From NCBI GenBank assembly GCA_030710605.1, contig CP092877.1:38716970-38780969 (forward strand): a stretch of 64,000 nt of DNA, given 5' to 3'. A program made the translations under genes and the position numbers. The notes under the pieces are model-generated. The model searched no databases. It saw only the letters and a list, made by a program, of their open reading frames with translations, and was not told where the DNA came from. Below are positions 4,732 to 62,990 of the stretch, one piece after another (position 1 is the first letter of the stretch; every line of letters begins with the position of its first letter). Source of the DNA: Cordylochernes scorpioides. Lineage: Eukaryota > Arthropoda > Arachnida > Pseudoscorpiones > Chernetidae.

Positions 4732-5187
4732 CTAGATATAATCTAACCTGCTTGCTGCGTATATGCTGATAAAGGATTTTAGGGTGGTCCAGATTAAATT
4801 TATGGCCTGTGTGTAATATATGTTAATATATATGAGTGTTTTAGGATCCCTATTATTTATGTTCCGTTTATGTTCTGTTAATCTGATGTGCGCGGTTCTA
4901 CCAGTCTCGCCCACATAGGAGGCTGGGCAATCATGGCAAGAAACAGCGTACACATCACCAGTGGAATGGATGGGGTTGTTAGGTTTATCTGCTTTGGTGA
5001 TGGGATTCCTGAGAAGGGTTGCAATATTAGGAGGACTGTTGTAAAAGACCTGAATACCGTAAGGACGAAGAATTCTGGAGATAGCAATGGAGACCGGGGG
5101 AAAAGGAAGGAGACAAGTGGCTCTATATACAGTGGTTGACCTTGGAATAATACAAACAGTATTCCACAAAAAGAACATATATACCAC
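4732..5187 (-). pseudogene. Penelope-like retroelement C-terminal fragment with GIY-YIG endonuclease motif
   Basis: The translated minus strand contains DVYAVSCHDCPASYVGETGR followed by an arginine/histidine segment. This is the start of the GIY-YIG nuclease that EN-positive Penelope-like elements carry after the reverse transcriptase, including the typical Cys-X2-Cys just before YVGETGR. The preceding residues (RILRPYGIQV and on) fit the RT-to-nuclease linker. The reverse transcriptase itself is missing and the C-terminal part of the nuclease is short, so this is a truncated relic. The first ~20 residues of the open frame are probably unrelated to the original protein. Hammerhead-like motifs at 4313-4380 and 5414-5450 flank it. 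Confidence 0.75.
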
Positions 5188-7324: not shown

Positions 7325-7575
7325 AAAATAAAGAAGGCATTTCCTGACCACGAGCACATGTGCTTTTTAGATGGCAGAGCGCCATCTAGTGGAGCAAAAA
7401 TGAACTAAAGTTTATTTAACTTGCTCACTGATATTTGGCCAACCCAATTTCTTGATAAATCAAGTGAAGCCATCCACGAACGCGTTTCGCGCTGTTGACG
7501 CTCGTCAGCGTGTAGTAGGCTGTAGTGGTCAGGATATGCCTTATTTATTTTTAATATCAACACCTGACCTTTTAT
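7325..7575 (-). mobile_element. Fold-back retrozyme-like unit with a complete hammerhead core (unit 1)
   Basis: On the minus strand the order is: AAGGCATATCCTGACCAC, the hammerhead (7475-7512), CTTGATTTATCAAG, TTGGGTTGGCC, TAGATGGCGCTCTGCCATCT, the perfect hairpin GCACATGTGC, and finally GTGGTCAGGAAATGCCTT. The two ends are therefore inverted copies of each other. No ORF is present. It faces a second unit at 7622-7815, with the inverted flank CAGGTGTTGATATTAAAAA between them. Related units lie at 10209, 25070 and 26262. Confidence 0.7.
7475..7512 (-). ncRNA. Hammerhead ribozyme candidate, all core positions present
   Basis: Read on the minus strand: helix I strand CACG, core CTGACGA, helix II GCG with a 7-nt loop closing on CGC, GAAA, the self-complementary helix III CGCGT with the preceding A (ACGCGT), cleavage-site T, and the helix I partner CGTG. 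Every conserved hammerhead element (CUGANGA, GAAA, A15.1-U16.1, H17) is present and both helices pair exactly. Helix III has no loop, so the molecule would need two copies (a dimer or tandem transcript), as known for the minimal hammerheads of Penelope-like elements and animal retrozymes. Confidence 0.75.
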
Positions 7576-7621
7576 ATTGTTTATTATTTTCACATATATA
7601 TGAAAAACAATAGAAAAAAAT

Positions 7622-7815
7622 AGAAAGATCAGGTGTTGATATTAAAAACAAAGAAGGCATATCCTGACCAGGGGCACATGTGCTTTTTCAGAAGACAGAG
7701 CGCCATCTGGTGGAACAGAAATCAACTAAACATTGATTTAGGTTGTTCCCTGATATTTGGCTAACCCAATATCTTGATAAATCAAGAAAGGTCATCCACC
7801 AACGCGTTATGTTAA
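7622..7815 (-). mobile_element. Fold-back retrozyme-like unit 2, hammerhead truncated
   Basis: Same body as unit 1 (GGCATATCCTGACC end, GCACATGTGC hairpin, CGCCATCT, TTGGCTAACCCAAT, CTTGATAAATCAAG). The minus strand begins at AACGCGTTGGTGG, so the downstream half of the ribozyme remains and the CTGACGA half is lost. Confidence 0.7.
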
Positions 7816-8840: not shown

Positions 8841-10080
8841 CACTGCGTGACATTGAAAATGGAACACCAAGAAATAGTGGCCAGAAAGTGATGAAACTCG
8901 GCAGACAGAGAGAGACAGGGACGAACAATAAGTCATCTTTATTTCAAAATGATAGTCATAATACAGAGCGAGAACGGCGTCGGCTTAGTAGCAAGTAGGA
9001 CCACCGCGGACGGGGATGCACGCAGCAACACGTCTAGGTAGAGAGTCAATCAGAGTACGGATGTCGTCCTGAGGGATGGCTCTCCATTCCCTCTCAACCA
9101 TTTGCCACAGTTCGTCTTCTGAACGCGGCTGTGGCAAGGCATGCAAACGGCGTCCAATGATGTCCCAGACGTGCTCGATTGGTGAGAGATCAGGAGAGTA
9201 CGGTGGCCAGGGAAGCATCTGTACATCTTGCAGAGCTTGTTGGCTAATGCGAGCAGTGTGCGGTCGGGCGTTATCCTGCTGATAAAGGGCATTGGGTACC
9301 CCCTGAAGGTAGGGGAGTGTCACCGGTCGCAGCACATCATCAACGTATCGTTGGGCCGTCATAGTGCCCTGAATAGGAAGTAAAGGTGACCTGGAATCAT
9401 ACGCGATTGCGCCCCAAACCATGATTCCACGTTGTCGCACGGTGGGGCGTTCCACAATTGCTGCCGGATTGGACCTTTCTCCACGTCGACGCCACACGCG
9501 TACACGGCGACTATCACTGGACAAGCAGAAACGCGACTCATCTGAGAACACGACCCTGTGCCATTCCGTCATCCACGTCGATCTAGCCCGGCACCATTCC
9601 AAACGTTGGCGCCTATTCGGTGGGGTCAATGGCAGTCTTCTTAGCGGACGGCATGAGTGTAAGCCATTAGCAACCAATTGACGGGAAATGGTTCTGGTCG
9701 AGATGGAATGATCTAGGGTGTCTTGCACATGTTGCAGGATGGCGGTACAAGTGGCTTGTGGGGCCGCCACTGCTTGTCGAAGGATACGCCGATCCACACG
9801 TGCTGACGTCACTCTGGTTGCACCGGCATTCCTATAAATTGCCACATTTCTTTGTTCCAACCATCTTCTCTACAGTCGGTGCACCGTGGACGCACCAAGG
9901 TGTGTATCAGCTGCGATTTGACGTATGGACCAACCTGCCCTTTTCAGTCCGATCACCATGCCCCTCGTAAAAGCGTCTGTCTGCTTGAACTGCCTCCGTT
10001 TACGATGACCTGGCATTCTCTGTTATTACACGTGTCTTTTGACACAAGAACAAAATTTCTACAATGATATTATGCAAATT
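8841..10080 (-). mobile_element. Tc1/mariner-type transposon, one end lost
   Basis: The left end is preceded by the expected TA and starts CACTGCGTGACATTG. The transposase occupies most of the rest. No inverted copy of the left end is found on the right, where the sequence passes from the transposase leader into a family A fragment (10085-10175). The element therefore lacks its 5' terminal repeat in transposase orientation and should be immobile. Confidence 0.8.
8985..10016 (-). pseudogene. Tc1-type transposase, full length with one in-frame TAG
   Basis: Starting at the ATG at 10016, the frame runs 343 codons to a TAA, a normal length for a Tc1-type transposase, with a single TAG at codon 49 (9870-9872). 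The N-terminal ~60 residues have the helix-turn-helix pattern GWSIRQIAADTHLGASTVHR. The catalytic domain shows VVFSDESRF (first Asp), YQQDNARPHT (second Asp) and SPDLSPIEHVWD (Glu). Counting codons, 32 residues separate the second Asp from the Glu, against 34 in canonical Tc1. Everything after the stop is open, so the loss is recent. The DNA is clearly GC-richer than its neighbours, fitting horizontal or recent arrival. Confidence 0.9.
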
Positions 10081-10175: not shown

Positions 10176-10208
10176 TTATATATATATATATATATTTTTA
10201 TATTATTC

Positions 10209-10373
10209 GTGGATGGCTTTTCTTGATTTATCAAGAAATTGGGTTGGCCAAATATCACGGAGCAAGCTAAATAAACGTTTAGTTTATTTTTGCTCCCCTA
10301 GATGGCGCTCTGCCATCTAAAAAGCACATGTGCTCGTGGTCAGGAGATGCCTTCTTTATTTTTAATATATATA
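10209..10373 (+). mobile_element. Fold-back retrozyme-like unit 3, starting at the predicted cleavage site
   Basis: Plus-strand copy of the body of unit 1, beginning CGTGGATGGCTTTTCTTGAT and ending GGTCAGGAGATGCCTTCTTT. The first base is the base that would lie immediately 3' of hammerhead cleavage in unit 1. The unit thus looks like an inserted copy of a self-cleaved RNA. Confidence 0.65.
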
Positions 10374-10449
10374 TATTAAAAATGGCATATCCTGATCTTT
10401 TTATCTTTTATTTTTTTATTTCGATTTTTAATATATATATATATACATA

Positions 10450-11388: not shown

Positions 11389-12484
11389 ACAACAACAACA
11401 ACAAAAGCCTTTATTGGGCACACGTGCCATAAAGGATTCTCCCGGTAGGACAAAATAAATAAATAACAAATCAGCATCATAGTTATATATACAAATATTG
11501 GGTATTGACCTCGACCAATTATCGAGTTGGATCCGGTGTCTGTGCTAAATATTTTGATTGAGCTGATTTCCAGTATTTATAAAAAGCGAATGCAAAGGGT
11601 TTGGATTTTACGACATTTGCCATTAAAACATAAGGCGAATTGCTATTATAGCCGGTCTCTTGACGAAGAATTTATCTCTCTTCTTCCATTGCCGTACAGT
11701 AGAACATGTAGTGTGGAAAATCGAGACTAAATTCACCGTTGCATAAGGTGCATTTTATGGTCTTAGTTTTCAAAAGTGAAACATGATTAATTCTCTGTAC
11801 TGCAAAAAGGCTTCTTACTTGTGCAATGATTCTCTTTAAGGTTAGGGGGATATTGTCATTTAGATAGCATTCCATTGTAGGTGATGAATGAAAGTATTTA
11901 TAGTGAGAGTAGAGTATTGATTTTCTAATTCTTACATAATCCAGCTGCAAGGACTGATCGGTTGCAGTTCTAATAATTAGGGGGATGTATCTTTGTAGAA
12001 TATTGGAGTCTGTACTTCCAACAAGCCATGAGAAGCCGGTGTTATTAAGTAGCTCTGTTATACTTTTTACCAGTCCGATATTCTGTTTTAAAGAAATTGA
12101 AATGTCCCACAAATGTGCCAAACAAATTGAAGGTAGCCTGCTGCCGTCCATTTTCAGAATTCTAGTCCAGAATTTTAAAGTTAGTTTTTTCACTGTGATA
12201 TCAAGAGAGTTTCTTCCTGTTTCGGCCCTCAAAATATAGCCCGGAGTATAGCTTGGAAGGCACAGAAAACGTCTGAGAAAGGTATCCTGGATTCTATCTA
12301 AGATTAAAACTTGATCATATGCCCAGATTGGAGCCGCATAGAGTAGGACTGTCAAGATCATAGAATCCAACAATCTTATACTTGCATGGAAGGATTTGAG
12401 CTTGGACTTCAGAATAATCTCCCCCACAGCACCCATCGCGGCCATGGTCCTGCGTCTATAATTTGAAGCAACTTGAGTGAAAGA
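11389..12484 (-). mobile_element. Non-LTR retrotransposon (LINE), 5'-truncated
   Basis: The minus strand carries the C-terminal part of a LINE ORF2 and ends with a 3' region containing CCCAATAAAGG followed by a CTTTTGTTGTTGTTGTTG microsatellite tail at 11389-11405. Such simple-repeat tails are typical of several LINE clades. The upstream end falls near a TA run at 12505, where the truncated copy joins an unrelated repeat. Confidence 0.75.
11672..12484 (-). pseudogene. LINE ORF2 C-terminal fragment (RT thumb and zinc knuckle)
   Basis: About 270 residues resemble the region after the RT catalytic domain of LINE proteins: LLDSMILTVLLYAAPIWAYD, then LDRIQDTFLRRFLCLPSYTP, TGRNSLD, and a terminal zinc knuckle CTLCNGEFSLDFPHYMFYC (C-X2-C...H...C). 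RT catalytic motifs are absent because of 5' truncation. The open frame extends a further 67 codons upstream into unrelated AT-rich DNA, which I exclude. Confidence 0.8.
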
Positions 12485-12522
12485 AATCGAAAGGGTGAGC
12501 GGGATATATATATATATATATG

Positions 12523-12830
12523 TTATGATTAATTTGTTTGTTGTTAGATAAAGGGTTGATAAGACAAAGAATCGATAAGATAAAGGGTTGAAGGTGCAGT
12601 CGTGATAAAAAAGATAATTATTTACCATCAAGTAGCTTTTATTTTCAATTACTTGAGGAAAATATAACACATTAGTTATTTTCACAATATATGGAATTTA
12701 TAAAGTTACTCCTATATTAGTGATTAAAAAAGATATTTCAACTACGCATATTTACAACAAAACTGAAAGTTATTCTAAAAACGATGATAACAAAAGTATA
12801 ATTATCAATGAATAAAAATAAGATATATAA
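12523..12830 (+). repeat. ~310-bp interspersed repeat, inverted copy of 32951-33280
   Basis: Shared blocks include GTTGTTAGATAAAGGGTTGA, AAGTAGCTTTTATTTTCAAT, ATTAGTTATTTTCACA and TACAACAAAACTGAAAG. The partner lies on the opposite strand directly beside the gypsy-type element. Class unknown. Confidence 0.75.
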
Positions 12831-18814: not shown

Positions 18815-19440
18815 AGTTTCGCCCAATAATCAACAATTCGACTTGTGGGATGATGACTGGATAGAAACCGCTACAAGAAAACTTCACTCTAAGAACAAAC
18901 CTTCAATAATTTAGTTACATAACCGTTTAGTAAACTCGGTTAATAAAATTGTCTTTCAACAATTACAAATAAGTTTCGCCCAATAATCAACAATTCGACT
19001 CTAGGAACGATGACTAGATAGAAACCACTACTAGAAAACTTCGCTCTAAGAACAAACCTTTAATAATTTAGTTACATAACCGTTTAGTAAACTCGGTCAA
19101 TAAAATTGTCTTCAACAATTGCAAATAATTTGAGTCAAAAGGCGATCCATTAATTAAGTTTATATAAAAGGGCGTACCTGGATCTGTAAGAAAAAAAAAT
19201 CTCAAAATATTTTGAGAGATTGCTCCCTCTTTATGAATTTATTGCACAGTCCATATTTTACAGATCCAGGTACGCCCTTTTGTATAAATTTCAAATAGGT
19301 TTCGCCCAACAATCAACAAAATACTTGTAGGACGATGACTAGATATAAACCACTAGTAGAAAACTTCACTCCAAGAACAAACCTCTAATAATTTAGTTAC
19401 ATAACTGTTTAATAAACTTAGTTATAATAAAAGTGAATTC
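18815..19440 (+). repeat. Tandem repeat of ~155-bp unit, three copies, interrupted once
   Basis: Units at about 18815-18968 and 18969-19127 are adjacent; the third follows at about 19298-19440. Shared blocks: GTTTCGCCCAATAATCAACA, GATGACT-GATA, TTAGTTACATAACCGTTTAG and AATAAAATTGTC. A fold-back element (19128-19291) separates units 2 and 3. Confidence 0.85.
19128..19291. mobile_element. Family C fold-back element inserted in a tandem repeat
   Basis: The 164-bp insertion is flanked by CAAATA on both sides. The unit 1/unit 2 junction of the tandem repeat shows the uninterrupted sequence. It starts after AATTTGAGTCAAAAGGCGA and contains inverted arms AAGGGCGTACCTGGATCTGT and ACAGATCCAGGTACGCCCTT. 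A second copy with a 12-bp duplication lies at 52113-52313. Confidence 0.85.
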
Positions 19441-21092: not shown

Positions 21093-21235
21093 AAAAAAAG
21101 ACATCTCCTGATCTTGCAACTGAAAGTTGCTGATATCTTGAGCCATCTCTCAGAATAAATATCAACTCCTCGTTGATTTTTATTTATTCCAGAATTGGCC
21201 AAATACCCATTCTTTATTAGTCAAGAATAGCTAAC
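21093..21235 (+). repeat. Family B copy, near full length
   Basis: AAAAAAAGACATCTCCTGATC, GCAACTGAAAGTTGC, GAGCCATCT, AATAAATATCAACTC, CGTTGATTTTTATT, ATTGGCCAAATACCCATTC and TAGTCAAGAATAGC appear in the family order, which makes this a good reference copy. Confidence 0.7.
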
Positions 21236-22316
21236 TACATAATTATTTCGGGCTATTGCACTCATCGTCGTGGTGCAAACTGTACCTCAAAGACCAAAAA
21301 GCTGGTCTTTGGGACATCCTGAAAAATCATCAGGTATTGATGCCAGATCGTCAAATTATAAGAAAAAATAGTATAAAAGGGAAGTTTTACTGTACCAGCA
21401 TCCCTTTCAAAACGTTATTTCTAATATAACACTTTTTATTTCATTTATTTTTATTCACAGAAAGCTCTAATTGACATAAAAATTATATAAATACAATAAA
21501 AATCACACCTCTTAAAATAAAACAATTATATTTTCATAATTAAAAATATAAATAATATTTATATTACACAAATATCTATTAAAATTCATTCCAAAAAAAA
21601 GTAATAGAAAATATATCAAACGAACCTAGAAAAACATGTCAAACGAAAAACCCGCCATATAAATTATGCAGACGAACAAGCGGCAATAACTCACAGGTGC
21701 TCCACATCACAAACACCACCGAGTATAGTTCCATTTATCTTGAGCAGACGAACTGTCTAAAAATAACCTGATTTTATAAAACCCTGCAGACGATGGATAA
21801 TAGGAATTCATCGTTTGGGAGATAATACATCTTCCATGTGATCATTTAGAAAGATTGGTCGATATAAGATCAATAACATTTGGTAGCACTGGGAGCAAGT
21901 TTAATTCGTTTTTTTTTTTCACTCTGTGAAATTTGCTCCCATTTTTATATCCATGTCATAAAGAAGAGAAATTGAAAAATGGATTTTAATAAATGTATAT
22001 ATAATGTGTATTTATATTGCTATAAAACATTGATTTTTAGTATTTATATAGAAATGTGTATTCATTTTTATTGCAGGGAATATAACGTTGATCTACAGGT
22101 GAATGAAATCAATAAAAATGATATTGATTTTATTAGCATAATAAAATTTAATTATAAATAGTGTCTATAAGAAAATAGATCATTAATTTTCAGAGAATAA
22201 TTTTATTATAAATTATATTATTCAATTCAATTATTCTTTTTTTTTCAACTAAATGAATTTGAATCTTTATTTAAGACTAAACACCAAAGGACATTGAAAA
22301 TTACAAGCCATAATAT
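21236..22316. other. AT-rich stretch with one hairpin
   Basis: A hairpin pairs TGGGAGCAA near 21890 with its complement near 21934 across a T run. No gene recognised. Confidence 0.45.
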
Positions 22317-24633: not shown

Positions 24634-25069
24634 TATAACTATGAACGATACTACAAGGATTCCTTGTTCACAAAGATCAAGAGTAAATGTAGTCCTATTG
24701 TGATGGTTCCAGAACTCTGCCCACCTCCAGAAGTCCGCGTATTGCCTGCTCTATATTATATAATTATCAAAAGCTGTAATCTATATTAGAGCAACTTGAA
24801 AAAGAAACAAACTATAATCCAAGAGGGTCTGTAATAAATTTCCAATGAAACTATCCAATATACCACGACGTTATATAAGACACCGATGGATCAAAACACA
24901 TCAGTTTTAATTAAAACCATCGACACCTCTTCTTCAATCTCTTCCTTTTATAATTAATCTGTTACCATTAATCTCTTTCCTTCACACTAATATAAAAATA
25001 CACATTATAGTTAATTAATTTCACGCTACTGAGCAAGTTTTTTTTTGGATCATATAATATATATATTAA
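24634..25069. other. Unannotated stretch
   Basis: No feature supported. Confidence 0.5.
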
Positions 25070-25402
25070 AATACAGAAGGCATATCCTGACCCTAGGCAC
25101 AGTGCTTATATAAAATATTTATATTTTTAAAATTATTTTTCCCAAGAAAAGCGTATTTACGCAAACTTGGCCTTAAATCCCCATTTCGTGATTTCTCAGG
25201 AAGACTCTTGGACCAAAATATTTTGGTCGTATAGGTATAGACTTACCACGCTGACGAAGGCCTTGATTTATCAAAAAATGGGTTGGCCAAACATCAGGGA
25301 ACAGGCTAAATCAACGTTTAGTTGATTTCCTTTCCACTAGATGGCACTTTGCCATCTAAATTTCATGTGAACGTGTTCAGGATATGCCTTTTTTGATTTT
25401 AA
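25070..25402 (+). mobile_element. Retrozyme-like fold-back unit 4, ribozyme half deleted
   Basis: Opens AGAAGGCATATCCTGACC and closes GTTCAGGATATGCCTTTTTT. In the middle is CCACGCTGACGAAGG, the 5' half of a hammerhead, directly followed by CCTTGATTTATC. Helix II, GAAA and helix III are therefore deleted. The body (TTGGCCAAAC, TAGATGGCACTTTGCCATCT) matches units 1-3. Confidence 0.7.
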
Positions 25403-25554
25403 TATATATAATAAAGCATAGGGCTCTTAGATCAATTTTCTCCCGAAAAAATTCCATCTATATATTTTTATTTATTTTAAAATTGTTTTCAACACACACA
25501 TATGGTAATTTAAACCAACAATTCCATATTGGTGTAATATAAAAAGATTGTATG

Positions 25555-26200: not shown

Positions 26201-26261
26201 ATATATATACATGAAAAAATGAAAGAAAAAATAAAAGACAAAAAGTTCAGGTGTTGAAATC

Positions 26262-26400
26262 AAAAATAAAAATGGCATATCCTGACCAGGAGCACATGTG
26301 CTTTACAGAAGGCAGAGCGCCATCTGGTGGACCAGAAATCAACTAAACATTGATTTAGCCTGTTCCCTGATATTTGGCCAACCCAATTTCTTGATAAATC
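26262..26400 (-). mobile_element. Retrozyme-like fold-back unit 5, ribozyme end missing
   Basis: Family body from GGCATATCCTGACCAGG through GAGCACATGTGC, AGAGCGCCATCTGGTGG, AATCAACTAAACATTGAT and CTTGATAAATC, then straight into a TA run. The segment that would hold the hammerhead is absent. Confidence 0.7.
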
Positions 26401-26468
26401 ATATATATATATATATATATATTATATAATCTAAAAACTCAAATATTTCTATATTTTAAAAATATATA

Positions 26469-39040: not shown

Positions 39041-39518
39041 CCCAGTACAATTTCACCTTTGTACTAATATTTCAAATAAATACATTTTTTGATTTATTTT
39101 CAAAGGTTTTGGTGTGAAATATATAGTTCAAATACGTATACATGACAAGAGAGAACTATAATAATTTATACCCATCTCAGATTATATATATAATATATAA
39201 TGTTTAATGAGAGAAATTATATTTAAATATCACAATATTATTATTGTGATTAAACAAATTTGAAATATGAATATAAAGTAATTACACGACAACTATGTAA
39301 AAGTAATTAAAATATTTTAGCGAAATTTTCTTTCGTAAATCAAACAGTTTTATACTAACCTTACTGCGATGAAGAAATATTGGGAGGGTCTGGCTCATCA
39401 GTGGTGAACCCTCTTCTAGCCAATTCTTTCCATCAGAGTTTTCTACTATTGTATTTGTCTATAGATCTTTGGTCTATTTGTTTCTTTATGTGTTCATTTT
39501 AGGATGAGAATCTTAATA
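39041..39518. other. AT-rich stretch with a family D remnant
   Basis: Around 39355-39415, CCTTACTGCGATGAAGAAAT and GGTCTGGCTCATCAG correspond to the centre of family D without its arms. Confidence 0.45.
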
Positions 39519-46583: not shown

Positions 46584-48289
46584 TATATAATAACAAGAAC
46601 TGTACTCTCTTTAGAATTATTTTTAAAAGAGAGAGATTGATTGAAGTTTGAAACTGATTCATTAAGCGTTCATATAAGATGAGAGAGAGAATGTGTGTGA
46701 AATTATAGAGACCTATTACAGTGGTCACTGGTCAAAATGAGGCGATGGTCGTTATTAAGGATATTGCTTTGAAGAAAGTGACCTGGTTATTCTTAGAGAA
46801 TGGTCGCTAACCTGATATGGAACGCGGTATTGTGATCAAGCTGTACAGACCGATATGCTGCATGGACAAGACATCATCAACATATTAAATTTAATATTCT
46901 TGATGTATGAACGCCCCTTTCTTTTTTATTTATCCTTATATAAACCTAATTTTTTAATGACGGAATCTGAAATATTTCATTTCTCCTTTTTTCTGCATTT
47001 TTAATGAAAGCTAAAACTATTTTTGTGTCAATTATTTATGATATATATATTATTACACTCATATACAAAACTTATGAAAGTGGAAAGTCTTTGATACGGT
47101 GGTAGACTGTCACAATCTGCCAAAGAGGTGTTTATCTGGCAAAGTGGCTAGGATAAATCTATGGCCGAAATATATATATGAAAATTTAGCCGGGATGAAA
47201 TTGATTTATAAAAACAAAGGTCGCCTCTCCCGTCAAAATAAACGACAAAACTAGACGATATATATTTTGACGGAAAAAGTCAACCTTTTATTATATATGT
47301 ATATTATTGCCACGTGGAAAATTTGGAAAGACAAACTTTATGATGACACGACAAATTATTTGAGACAACAACAAGCTATGAATGATAAACAAAAGATAAA
47401 CAATAAGCGAGATCTACAGAATAGAAAAAAAAATTATAAAAATGATACTCTATTAATGAAATAATAGATACTTTGCTACATAGCTCCTTCCCTGTGGGAA
47501 CTGTGACCCACAGTTTGCAATTATTGAAGTTACTGACATGGATCTGACGTGCTTCTGCCAAGAAGTCCATCAAAATCTTGGAGCTTTGTCCCTAGTACCT
47601 TTGCGTTCTTTTTCTTGCGGCGTGAAGAGCGGCTTTGTCATCGAATCGTCTATAGGAACATCGTCATCTTGGAGGGAAGTCTTGGCTTTGACACGTCGGT
47701 GGAATCCTGGAGCCGGTCTCTGAAAATGTAGATCACAGCACCCATTGCCTCACGGTCTTCTTGGCGATCTTCAGCTTGTCTTCTCTAATTTACCCAGCAT
47801 CTATACCAAAATGCCACGTGGAAAGTTAGGAAAGACAAACTTAAGGATGACACATAATTTTTTTAAGGTAAGAACAAACTATGAATGATAAACAAAAGAT
47901 AAAACATGAGCGAAGTTCACAGAGTAGCAAAATCTATATTAATAAAATGGAAATTTCATAAGTGGTGTTCGCTAAAAAACTTTCGTTACAATGCATCAAT
48001 TTCGACCAAATTTTCAACATTTATGTAAAACGAGATGGAGCAGGTTTTGCTTAACATCAAAATATTTTTCCTAACTTTAACATGCGTAACTTCGCTGTTA
48101 TGGATTAAATACAAAAAAAAAATTAACAGAGTTAATTTTATTTATATATAAATAAAAAAAATTCAACAGAAGTTTTTTTTTTTTTACATACTAGCTAATA
48201 ATCTCAATCTAAAAAAATATTCAAAACAAGCAATTTTAAGATAACACCATATGTAAAACAGTCGGCCAAGAAAACAACAATATAATATA

Positions 48290-49551
48290 AAAAGCCAACA
48301 ATTAAGAATAAATGTAAGATAAAAAGCCAACAATGAAGAGCAAATATAATATAAAAAGCCAACAATGAAGAATGAATGTAAGATAAAAAGCCAACAATGA
48401 AGACTAAATATGATATAAAAAGCCAACAATGAAGAATGAATGTAAGATAAAAAGCCAACAATGAAGAGTAAATGTAATATAAAAAGCCAACAATGAAGAA
48501 TAAATGTAAGATAAAAAGCCAACAATGAAGAGTAAATATAATATAAAAAGCCAACAATGAAGAGTGAATGTAAGATAAAAAGCCAACAATGAAGAGTAAA
48601 TGTAATATAAAAAGCCAACAATGAAGAATGAATGTAAGATAAAAAGCCAACAATGAAGAGTGAGTGTAATATAAAAAGCCAACAATGAAGAATGAATGTA
48701 AGATGAAAAGCCAACAATGAAGAGTGAATGTAAGATAAAAAGCCAACAATGAATAGTAAATGTAATATAAAAAGCCAACAATGAAGAATGAATGTATGAT
48801 AAAAAGCCAACAATGAAGAGTAAATATAATATAAAAAGCCAACAATGAAGAATGAATGTAAGATAAAAAGCCAACAATGAAGAGTAAATATAATATAAAA
48901 AGCCAACAATGAAGAGTGAATGTAAGATAAAAAGCCAACAATGAAGAGTAAATGTAATATAAAAAGCCAACAGAGTGAATGTAAGATAAAAAGCCAACAA
49001 TGAAGAGTGAATGTAATATAAAAAGCCAACAATGAAGAATGAATGTAACATAAAAAGCCAACAATGAAGAGTAAATGTAATATAAAAAGCCAACAATGAA
49101 GAATGAATGTAAGATAAAAAGCCAACAATGAAGAGTGAATGTAATATAAAAAGCCAACAATGAAGAATGAATGTAACATAAAAAGCCAACAATGAAGAGT
49201 AAATGTAATATAAAAAGCCAACAATGAAGAATGAATGTAAGATAAAAAGCCAACAATGAAGAGTGAATGTAATATAAAAAGCCAACAATGAAGAATGACT
49301 GTAACATAAAAAGCCAACAATGAAGAGTAAATGTAATATAAAAAGCCAACAATGAAGAATGAATGTAAGATAAAAAGCCAACAATGAAGAGTGAGTGTAA
49401 TATAAAAAGCCAACAATGAAAAATGAATGTAAGATAAAAAGCCAACAATGAAGAGTGAATGTAAGATAAAAAGCCAACAATGAAGAGTGAATGTAATATA
49501 AAAAGCCAACAATGAAGAATGAATGTAAGTTAAAAAGCCAGCAATGAAGAG

Positions 49552-49553
<2 letters not shown>
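48290..49553. repeat. 32-bp minisatellite, about 40 units
   Basis: Unit: AAAAAGCCAACAATGAAG followed by AGTGAATGTAATAT or AATGAATGTAAGAT. The two variants largely alternate, giving a 64-bp higher-order period. Because 32 is not a multiple of 3 and the unit has no stop on the minus strand, all three minus frames are open for over 1.2 kb. These frames are not genes. Confidence 0.95.

Positions 49554-49597
<44 letters not shown>
49554..49597. repeat. (AT)n microsatellite
   Basis: About 20 AT dinucleotides joining the minisatellite to the tRNA-bearing part of the Helitron. Confidence 0.93.
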
Positions 49598-61979: not shown

Positions 61980-62990
61980 CTTAGCCACCCTAGACTTCGG
62001 TATCATGGTAAACCTCCATGCTACCGTGGAACTTGTGGACTTCGTGAGGAGATCTCAGCTATCTCAGGTGGACTTCTTGACTTCGATGAGGATCCTTGGA
62101 ATTCGCGGGACTTTTTACACTTCGTGAAGATTTTCGGATATTATTGCACTTTTGATCTTCGTGAGGATTCTCAGCAATAATGGGACTTCTTGGACTTCAT
62201 GAGATTCTCGGATATCGCAGGAACTTTTGACCTTCGTGAGTATTCTTGGATATCATGTATTTTTTTGGACTTTGTCATAATTCTCGGCTATGGTGATATT
62301 TCTTGGCCTACGTATGGATTATCGGTAATAATTGGATTTCTTCTTGAGGATTCTCGGCAATAATGGGATTTTTTTGTAAGGATTCTCGACAATAATGGGA
62401 TTTCTTTGTAAGGATTCTCGGCAATAATGGGATTTCTTCGTAAAGATTCTCGACAATAATAGGATTTCTTCGTAAGGATTCTCGGCAATAATGGAATTTC
62501 TTCGTGAGGATTATCGGCAATAATGGGATTTCTTCGTAAGGATTCTTGGAAATAATGGGATTTCTTTGTAAGGATTCTCGGCAATAATGGGATTTCTTCG
62601 TAAGGATTCTTGGAAATAAAGGGATTTCTTTGTAAGGAATCTCGGCAATAATGGGATTTCTTCGTAAAGATTCTTGGAAATAAAGGAATTTCTTTCTAAG
62701 GATTCTCGGCAATAATGGGATTTCTTTGTGAGGATTCTCGGCAATAATGGGATTTCTTTGTGAGTATTCTCGGCAATAATGGGATTTCTTTGTAAGGATT
62801 CTCGGCAATAATGGGTTTCTTCGTGAGGATTCTCGGCAATAATGGGAATTTTTTGTGAGGATTCTCGGCAATAATTAGTTTTTCCGTGATGATTCTCGGC
62901 AATAATGGTTTTCTTCGTGAGGATTCTCGGTAATAATGTGATTTCTTGGCCTTCATGAAGATACTTGGCTATAATGGAACTTCTCGGTCC
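61980..62990. repeat. Second 32-bp minisatellite (GATTCTCGGCAATAATGGG unit)
   Basis: The regular part, about 62318-62950, consists of ~20 units of GGGATTTCTTCGTAAGGATT followed by CTCGGCAATAAT, with G/A, T/C and small indel variation. The left part (61980-62318) is a decayed, longer-period version (GGACTTCGTGAGGATTCTC). Minus-strand open frames of up to 187 codons only reflect the stop-free unit. Confidence 0.93.

Follow-up and report, generated by a model that had tools for sequence, protein, structure and literature searches.

According to the accessible portions of the literature, a typical Penelope insert carries inverted pLTRs, arranged mostly head-to-head in simple AT-rich targets, with a 31-bp tail optionally present on one of the two (PMC3846280). 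In work on a purified lizard Penelope-like element (PLE) the tail corresponded to the sequence between two internal reverse transcription (RT) start sites, and both DNA strands were cut and extended (PMC11167929). Metazoan non-LTR retrozymes (Cervera & de la Pena 2020, PMC7229834) are non-coding tandem repeats of 150-450 bp with a GC content below 50%, a type I hammerhead ribozyme and many copies. PLEs have been proposed as candidate helpers of these retrozymes on the basis of hammerheads, tandem copies and co-occurrence (PMC7229834, PMC7761336); a 2020 review describes, in the part available, animal retrozyme repeats as being without a conserved motif that would reveal the helper retrotransposon (PMC7761336), and LINEs and PLEs alike still figure as possible helpers in a review from 2024 (PMC11722881). 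The locus described here, from the pseudoscorpion Cordylochernes scorpioides, shares features with both kinds of element.

The window (the whole stretch of 64,000 nt that was analysed, G000:C15:38716970-38780969 of the assembly; coordinates without a locus name are positions within it) contains a complete type I hammerhead motif on the minus strand at 7468-7521, an assignment that draws on the sequence, on an alignment of copies (A1), on pair counts and on the fit to the genome-wide pattern. The core, read from 7512 to 7475 on the minus strand, consists of CACG, CTGACGA, GCG-tcaacag-CGC, GAA, ACGCGT, T and CGTG; past an internal loop (TACTA / GAT), AGCC (7521-7518) pairs with GGCT (7471-7468) as an outer helix I. 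The invariant core CUGANGA / GAA / UH and the three helices are present in type I order, and the H17 position of the hammerhead fold places the predicted self-cleavage junction (T/C, minus strand) at 7478-7479. An earlier note on this DNA had proposed a hammerhead here: every conserved position that it listed is found at 7475-7512. The note is also right that a non-coding mobile element carries this type I hammerhead, that helix III is palindromic, and that PLEs and animal retrozymes are known to have hammerheads of this kind.

Chance was assessed with a descriptor (helix I of at least 4 bp, CTGANGA, stem II of at least 3 bp, GAA, helix III closed by U16.1, and H17), for which the 7475-7512 motif is the single match in the 64-kb window. 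In Markov-1 random sequence the descriptor gave 177 matches over 4,950 equivalents of the window, that is 0.036 expected per window against the one found; when helix III and its loop together span 6 nt, as here, the number is five over the same 4,950 equivalents. Judged from its sequence, the window hammerhead is not due to chance. At the gathering threshold an Rfam search of the whole window called two tRNAs only, with no hammerhead among the calls. A permissive search (best family per clan shown) gave 20.4 bits for Hammerhead_HH9 (E 0.02; cut-off 52), and its best matches were miRNA families over a long hairpin at ~7524-7673, all below their cut-offs. A covariance model built from 22 copies, the window motif itself being one of them, scores that motif at 80.7 bits. 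Elsewhere in the window are a Tc1-type transposase ORF recognized by Pfam (8985-9869, minus; up to 98% identity to many Cordylochernes proteins) and two 32-bp tandem arrays (48279-49565, 40 copies; 62311-62947, 20 copies), both open in several frames.

The earlier note had asked for other genomic copies, and these are abundant: the pattern CTGANGANNGN{3,14}CNNGAAACGCGTTCGTGG (core plus site) has 9,555 + 9,682 = 19,237 exact matches in the 2.62-Gb assembly, and the same pattern reversed, searched as a control in the same genome, has 0 + 0. Exact hammerhead patterns gave no match in a collection of viral contigs and none in a collection of bacterial and archaeal contigs. With HH9, at least 18 matches at E <= 1e-3 were obtained in the C. 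scorpioides genome (58 of 178,716 candidates scored) and none in 14 control genomes. The best among the 58 scored has 41.8 bits (E 2.7e-6) and none of the 18 exceeds 52 bits, so that neither the window motif nor the best scored genomic copy reaches the curated Rfam cut-off.

Covariation was examined in A1, which holds 22 motifs (21 distinct) from young and old copies and 14 base pairs. Standard pairs occupy 94.9% of the 294 pair cells, which are not independent events because the rows are related; sliding controls, with partners shifted, give pairing of only 20-42%. Two-sided changes occur at five of the 14 base pairs, which amounts to compensatory change in the helices: C-G to G-C and G-C to U-A in stem II, and C-G to U-A in helix I. 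Stem II pair 27-38, for example, is CG in 16 copies, GC in four and GU in one. On four of five covariation measures none of 500 shuffles reaches the observed value; on the fifth (further pair types) 85 of 500 do. Helix III is a single A-U pair in 20 of 21 (G-U in one) with the loop CGCG in 19 of the 22 rows, an arrangement shared with an axolotl family, in which one helix III pair is likewise combined with a palindromic tetraloop (PMC7229834). The earlier note would have been refuted by the lack of a significant covariance score: covariation is seen among the copies, although the Rfam model stays below its cut-off both in the window and for the genomic candidates scored.

The young carrier unit, as represented by locus L009, is 350-351 nt long with a GC content of 39%. 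It has no ORF of note (the longest ATG ORF in a tripled unit is 50 aa), in agreement with the earlier note. Non-coding tandem repeats within the 150-450 bp range, low GC, a type I hammerhead and many copies are the features of metazoan non-LTR retrozymes (PMC7229834), and by these marks the carrier is an animal non-LTR retrozyme, a known kind. The RT and GIY-YIG ORF that would make it a PLE is absent: given that it lacks an ORF of note, the carrier is at most a non-autonomous user of PLE machinery.

Hammerheads of the family occur in arrays. Among the first 100 hammerhead places listed (the first 21 Mb of contig C1) 27 pairs of neighbours lie no more than 1.5 kb apart, of which 14 share a strand, 13 are in minus-plus order and none is in plus-minus order. 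The spacing is 349-352 nt in all 14 same-strand pairs, and in two-arm insertions the arms are joined head-to-head. L009 is an example: five minus-strand and seven plus-strand hammerheads lie between outer flanks that share ATAGGTTTATAT, the whole array being inside one 12-bp target duplication, which suggests circular or multimeric templates. Ten complete L009 units are 99.4% alike (45 pairs), with the same value between arms (24 pairs) and 99.3% within an arm (21 pairs); the value for units compared across L009, L023 and L013 is 98.4% (65 pairs). At least for L009, it seems that one template, or very similar ones, gave rise to both arms within a single insertion. Homogeneity within arrays was considered as a general sign of one circular template and set aside: L009 fits (99.4 vs 98.4%), and L023, whose five units are 98.2% alike among themselves, does not. 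At L010, 219 nt lie between the two arms. Around the array L064-L067 (G000:C1:3712449-3725801) L065 and L067 end in the same 200 bases and L066 looks near-identical, which may come from a segmental duplication in inverted orientation or from the assembly.

When arms are mapped on the unit, their outer ends fall at one of two places: site B, at ~150-164 (near 155), or site A, at 204-211 (near 208), so that arms ending at A carry a "tail" of ~52 nt. Both ends are seen in the window copies. The copy that holds the hammerhead, c1, is a short member of the family, with limits set by eye: its right (long) arm (7525-7319, minus) starts just upstream of the hammerhead and runs through the body to end at site B, with no tail, and its short inverted arm (7526-7598, plus; inverted repeat I1) consists of a 3' end with tail only and ends at site A. 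The "inverted ends" of a fold-back element, as the earlier note had it, are the two 3' ends of the c1 arms. We read them as the product of a head-to-head insertion whose inverted arm is short, and not as terminal inverted repeats of a single element. The body motif CCACTAGATGGCGC (7364-7400; similar letters in other copies) resembles the CTCF binding consensus. A second copy, c2 (7599-7808, minus), starts 7-8 nt upstream of the predicted cleavage site, has the tail at its end and adjoins c1 within an (AT)n run. We considered c2-c1 as a 322-nt tandem dimer and rejected this, the true unit being 350-351 nt: they are more readily explained by two insertions that adjoin each other in (AT)n. The fold of the 322-nt segment, considered as evidence for a circle, was likewise rejected, since its strength is mostly that of a hairpin between c1 and c2. 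The remaining copies are c3 (10206-10432, plus), a single arm whose start lies 0-2 nt from the predicted cleavage site and whose end is at site A; an old decayed copy (64%) at 21142-21300 (minus), with a degenerate hammerhead at 21228-21285 (29 bits); c5 (25118-25410, plus), a diverged copy in which only the hammerhead's 5' half (CACGCTGACGA) remains, the 3' half being deleted, head-to-head with the inverted 3'-end fragment c6 (25052-25107, minus); and the 5'-truncated c4 (26209-26401, minus), which ends at site A in (AT)n.

For the isolated c1 motif the predicted monomer energy of the hammerhead is -4.0 kcal/mol with the helix III pair and -10.1 without it, against -19.2 kcal/mol, and a double hammerhead is predicted at -27.5 against -43.6 kcal/mol: in this calculation, which does not extend to tertiary contacts or protein help, other hairpins are favoured over the hammerhead. 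The earlier note's requirement that two molecules pair is too strong: axolotl motifs that combine a single helix III base pair with a palindromic tetraloop show weak cleavage as monomers and more efficient cleavage as dimers (PMC7229834), and a PLE hammerhead is described as protein-assisted (PMC11167929). Minimal dimeric PLE hammerheads (Lunse et al. 2017; Cervera & de la Pena 2014), compared here by their description, share the short or missing helix III, and dimer cleavage has been suggested for them (PMC7761336).

The two end sites are not combined at random. Over two sets taken together, 27 of the 30 two-arm insertions that could be scored combine an A end on one arm with a B end on the other (P 4e-6 under independent, equally likely ends); that is, the arms are head-to-head with a tail on one of the two, which is the mark of Penelope-type insertions. 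The first set comprises L009-L024, which come from the 18 HH9 matches and are thus chosen by hammerhead score, plus the window. A/B ends were found in 16 of its 18 scorable insertions (14 from coordinates, and L023 and c1 from inspection by eye), and the two exceptions, L015 7893-8220 and c6/c5 (by eye), are both old and both B/B. Three two-arm insertions of this set were unscorable (L022 4206-4431; L014 5388-5533; L014 from 9647 onward, cut by the locus end), and the tally leaves aside one-strand or unclear cases (L015 4897, L016, L018 1871, L020 7279, L021, L024, window c2, c3 and c4, and the remaining one-strand fragments). The second set consists of all 13 minus-plus clusters among the 100 places, leaving 57 single places and three one-strand clusters. 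Scored by eye and then by script with the same result, it has A/B ends in 11 of 12: the exception, L066/L067, is B/B with outer flanks that look alike, and cluster 7 (L076/L077) is unscorable, one of its ends being at neither site. Inner arm ends mapped on the unit do not cluster at the predicted cleavage site, a pattern that says little since the loci of the first set were picked for holding a hammerhead.

Flanking sequences were also compared. Shared flanks resembling target duplications are seen, by eye and with no control, at L009, L010, L012, L020, L021 and L024, and with one mismatch at L011, L017 and L018; the single-arm, 5'-truncated insertions L021 and L024 have common flanks of 12-13 nt. 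An automatic test is weak because the targets are AT repeats: in the C1 sample, flanks share at least 10 nt in eight of 11 true pairs, and 46 of 110 mismatched pairs do so as well. Clear target duplications are confined to targets other than plain (AT)n; at AT-repeat targets in the C1 sample, shared flanks are indistinguishable from chance.

The same genome carries a PLE. In the window, a PLE fragment covering the GIY-YIG endonuclease region lies at ~4822-5139 (minus; limits of the searched peptide), with 58-73% identity to three Cordylochernes proteins (UniRef: GIY-YIG domain-containing), 71% identity over 77% of the query to one Cordylochernes protein, and a Pfam GIY-YIG score of 14.9 bits, under the 22.6 cut-off. 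Genome-wide, the PLE protein family occupies at least 150 places (150 scored of 49,268 candidates), with many minus-plus pairs, and its copies end near CTTATTCC or ~32 nt beyond. We examined 17 pairs of minus-plus neighbours, each assumed to be one insertion: in 15 of 16 scorable pairs one arm is tailed and the other tailless (12 of 13 on the strict windows of the scripts; P6, P7 and P10 fall outside those windows and were counted leniently by eye). The exception, L025, is A/A and P5 was unscorable. Eleven of the pairs (P1-P11) are from more than 20 minus-plus pairs among the places listed, and four had one end already scored.

The only similarity that BLAST found between the retrozyme unit and 20 PLE loci covers 78 nt of L031, and this segment is a decayed hammerhead too. 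A CTCTTA/TAAGAG stem-loop seen by eye at the PLE start sites is absent from the predicted minimum-energy fold and was discarded. In the 3' regions of five PLE loci (downstream of the ORF; L025, L029, L030, L034, L037) there is a hammerhead-like remnant, TTGC, CTGTAGA, AGGAC..GTCC, GAA, AGCT, T and GCAG (GCGA as the last part in L029), with the palindrome AGCT at the place of helix III and one core base changed, CTGTAGA occurring in all five. Next to a PLE end lies a second tandem repeat of ~370 bp (L037:2353-3414; window near 39401, minus), which on the other strand reads GGCGAAACCGC..GGGTTCACCACTGATGAGCC, like permuted hammerhead pieces without room for helix I.

The retrozyme insertions have in common with PLEs (PMC3846280, PMC11167929) head-to-head inverted copies, a tail optionally on one of them, the hammerhead, AT-rich targets and target duplications (8-10 bp in rotifer examples), and differ in the absence of an ORF, the 350-nt repeat unit, the internal loop in helix I and the loop on stem II. 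From the metazoan retrozymes described previously (PMC7229834) they differ by being head-to-head with A/B ends. Since both kinds of insertion have this layout, an optional tail and AT-rich targets, mobilization of the retrozymes by PLE machinery is the shortest reading, the A/B anatomy pointing to PLEs as helpers, and we consider it probable that this is a family of animal non-LTR retrozymes using Penelope-type machinery. A multimeric transcript would be cut at the hammerhead into ~350-nt units, which would be ligated into circles. A PLE protein would make cuts staggered by ~10-15 bp in the two strands of an AT-rich target, and each DNA end would then prime reverse transcription of the retrozyme RNA, from site A at one end and from site B at the other. 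Both end sites are visible in the insertions, and the use of one start site per DNA end is what we infer from them. On a circular or multimeric template the cDNA can hold several units, and the two arms, in an order of steps that we suppose, would be joined in the head-to-head layout observed.

How do other explanations fare? A non-autonomous fold-back DNA transposon (MITE), with terminal inverted repeats that happen to enclose a hammerhead-like sequence, would account for the 47-nt inverted arms at 7526-7572 and 7624-7670 (94% complementary) and for an element with no ORF. It is nevertheless highly improbable: the ends are asymmetric (A vs B), inner ends differ from copy to copy, unit numbers vary, single-arm 5'-truncated insertions (L021, L024) have shared 12-13 nt flanks, and plus-minus order is absent among the 100 places. 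Mobilization by a LINE, with head-to-head arrays formed later by recombination or as assembly artefacts, gains something from the naming of LINEs as possible helpers in reviews (PMC11722881), from a LINE-like ORF at 11672-12697 (identified by eye, without a Pfam match) and from the look-alike outer flanks at one locus (L066/L067). Under LINE mobilization all 3' ends should be of a single kind, yet two kinds are found, paired one of each; the same pairing of ends recurs in the PLE of this genome, and the L009 array sits within one target duplication with different outer flanks, which together leave this account quite unlikely.

A further question is whether the hammerhead still acts. It could be a relic that was inherited from PLE pseudo-LTRs and has become inactive, the element spreading as read-through RNA with no self-cleavage: PLE insertion in vitro did not need hammerhead cleavage (PMC11167929), the inner arm ends do not mark the predicted cleavage site, and the isolated motif is predicted to misfold. 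Against such decay stand the pairing kept by compensatory changes in diverged subfamilies and the retention of the whole pattern at 19,237 places, and we regard an inactive hammerhead as unlikely. Returning to PLE-mobilized retrozymes, a more extended version of this reading is one for which we judge the chances to be even: a PLE enzyme, perhaps as a dimer, may integrate circular hammerhead RNA at two ends, with A and B starts, rolling-circle cDNA from both and head-to-head joining of the arms, in which case the A/B rule may be general for PLEs and retrozymes may be pared-down PLE pseudo-LTRs. For the lizard PLE, start sites are reported not to differ between the two strands (PMC11167929), so that the A/B pairing finds no explanation in that work.

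In the accessible parts of the literature searched there is no earlier account of head-to-head A/B retrozyme insertions, and Cervera 2014, Craig 2021 and Lunse 2017 may contain one. The insertion ends in C. scorpioides are evidence that bears on the identity of the helper. With 19,237 matches and many young arrays, this species is suited to testing two-end integration by PLEs and the circular RNA template.
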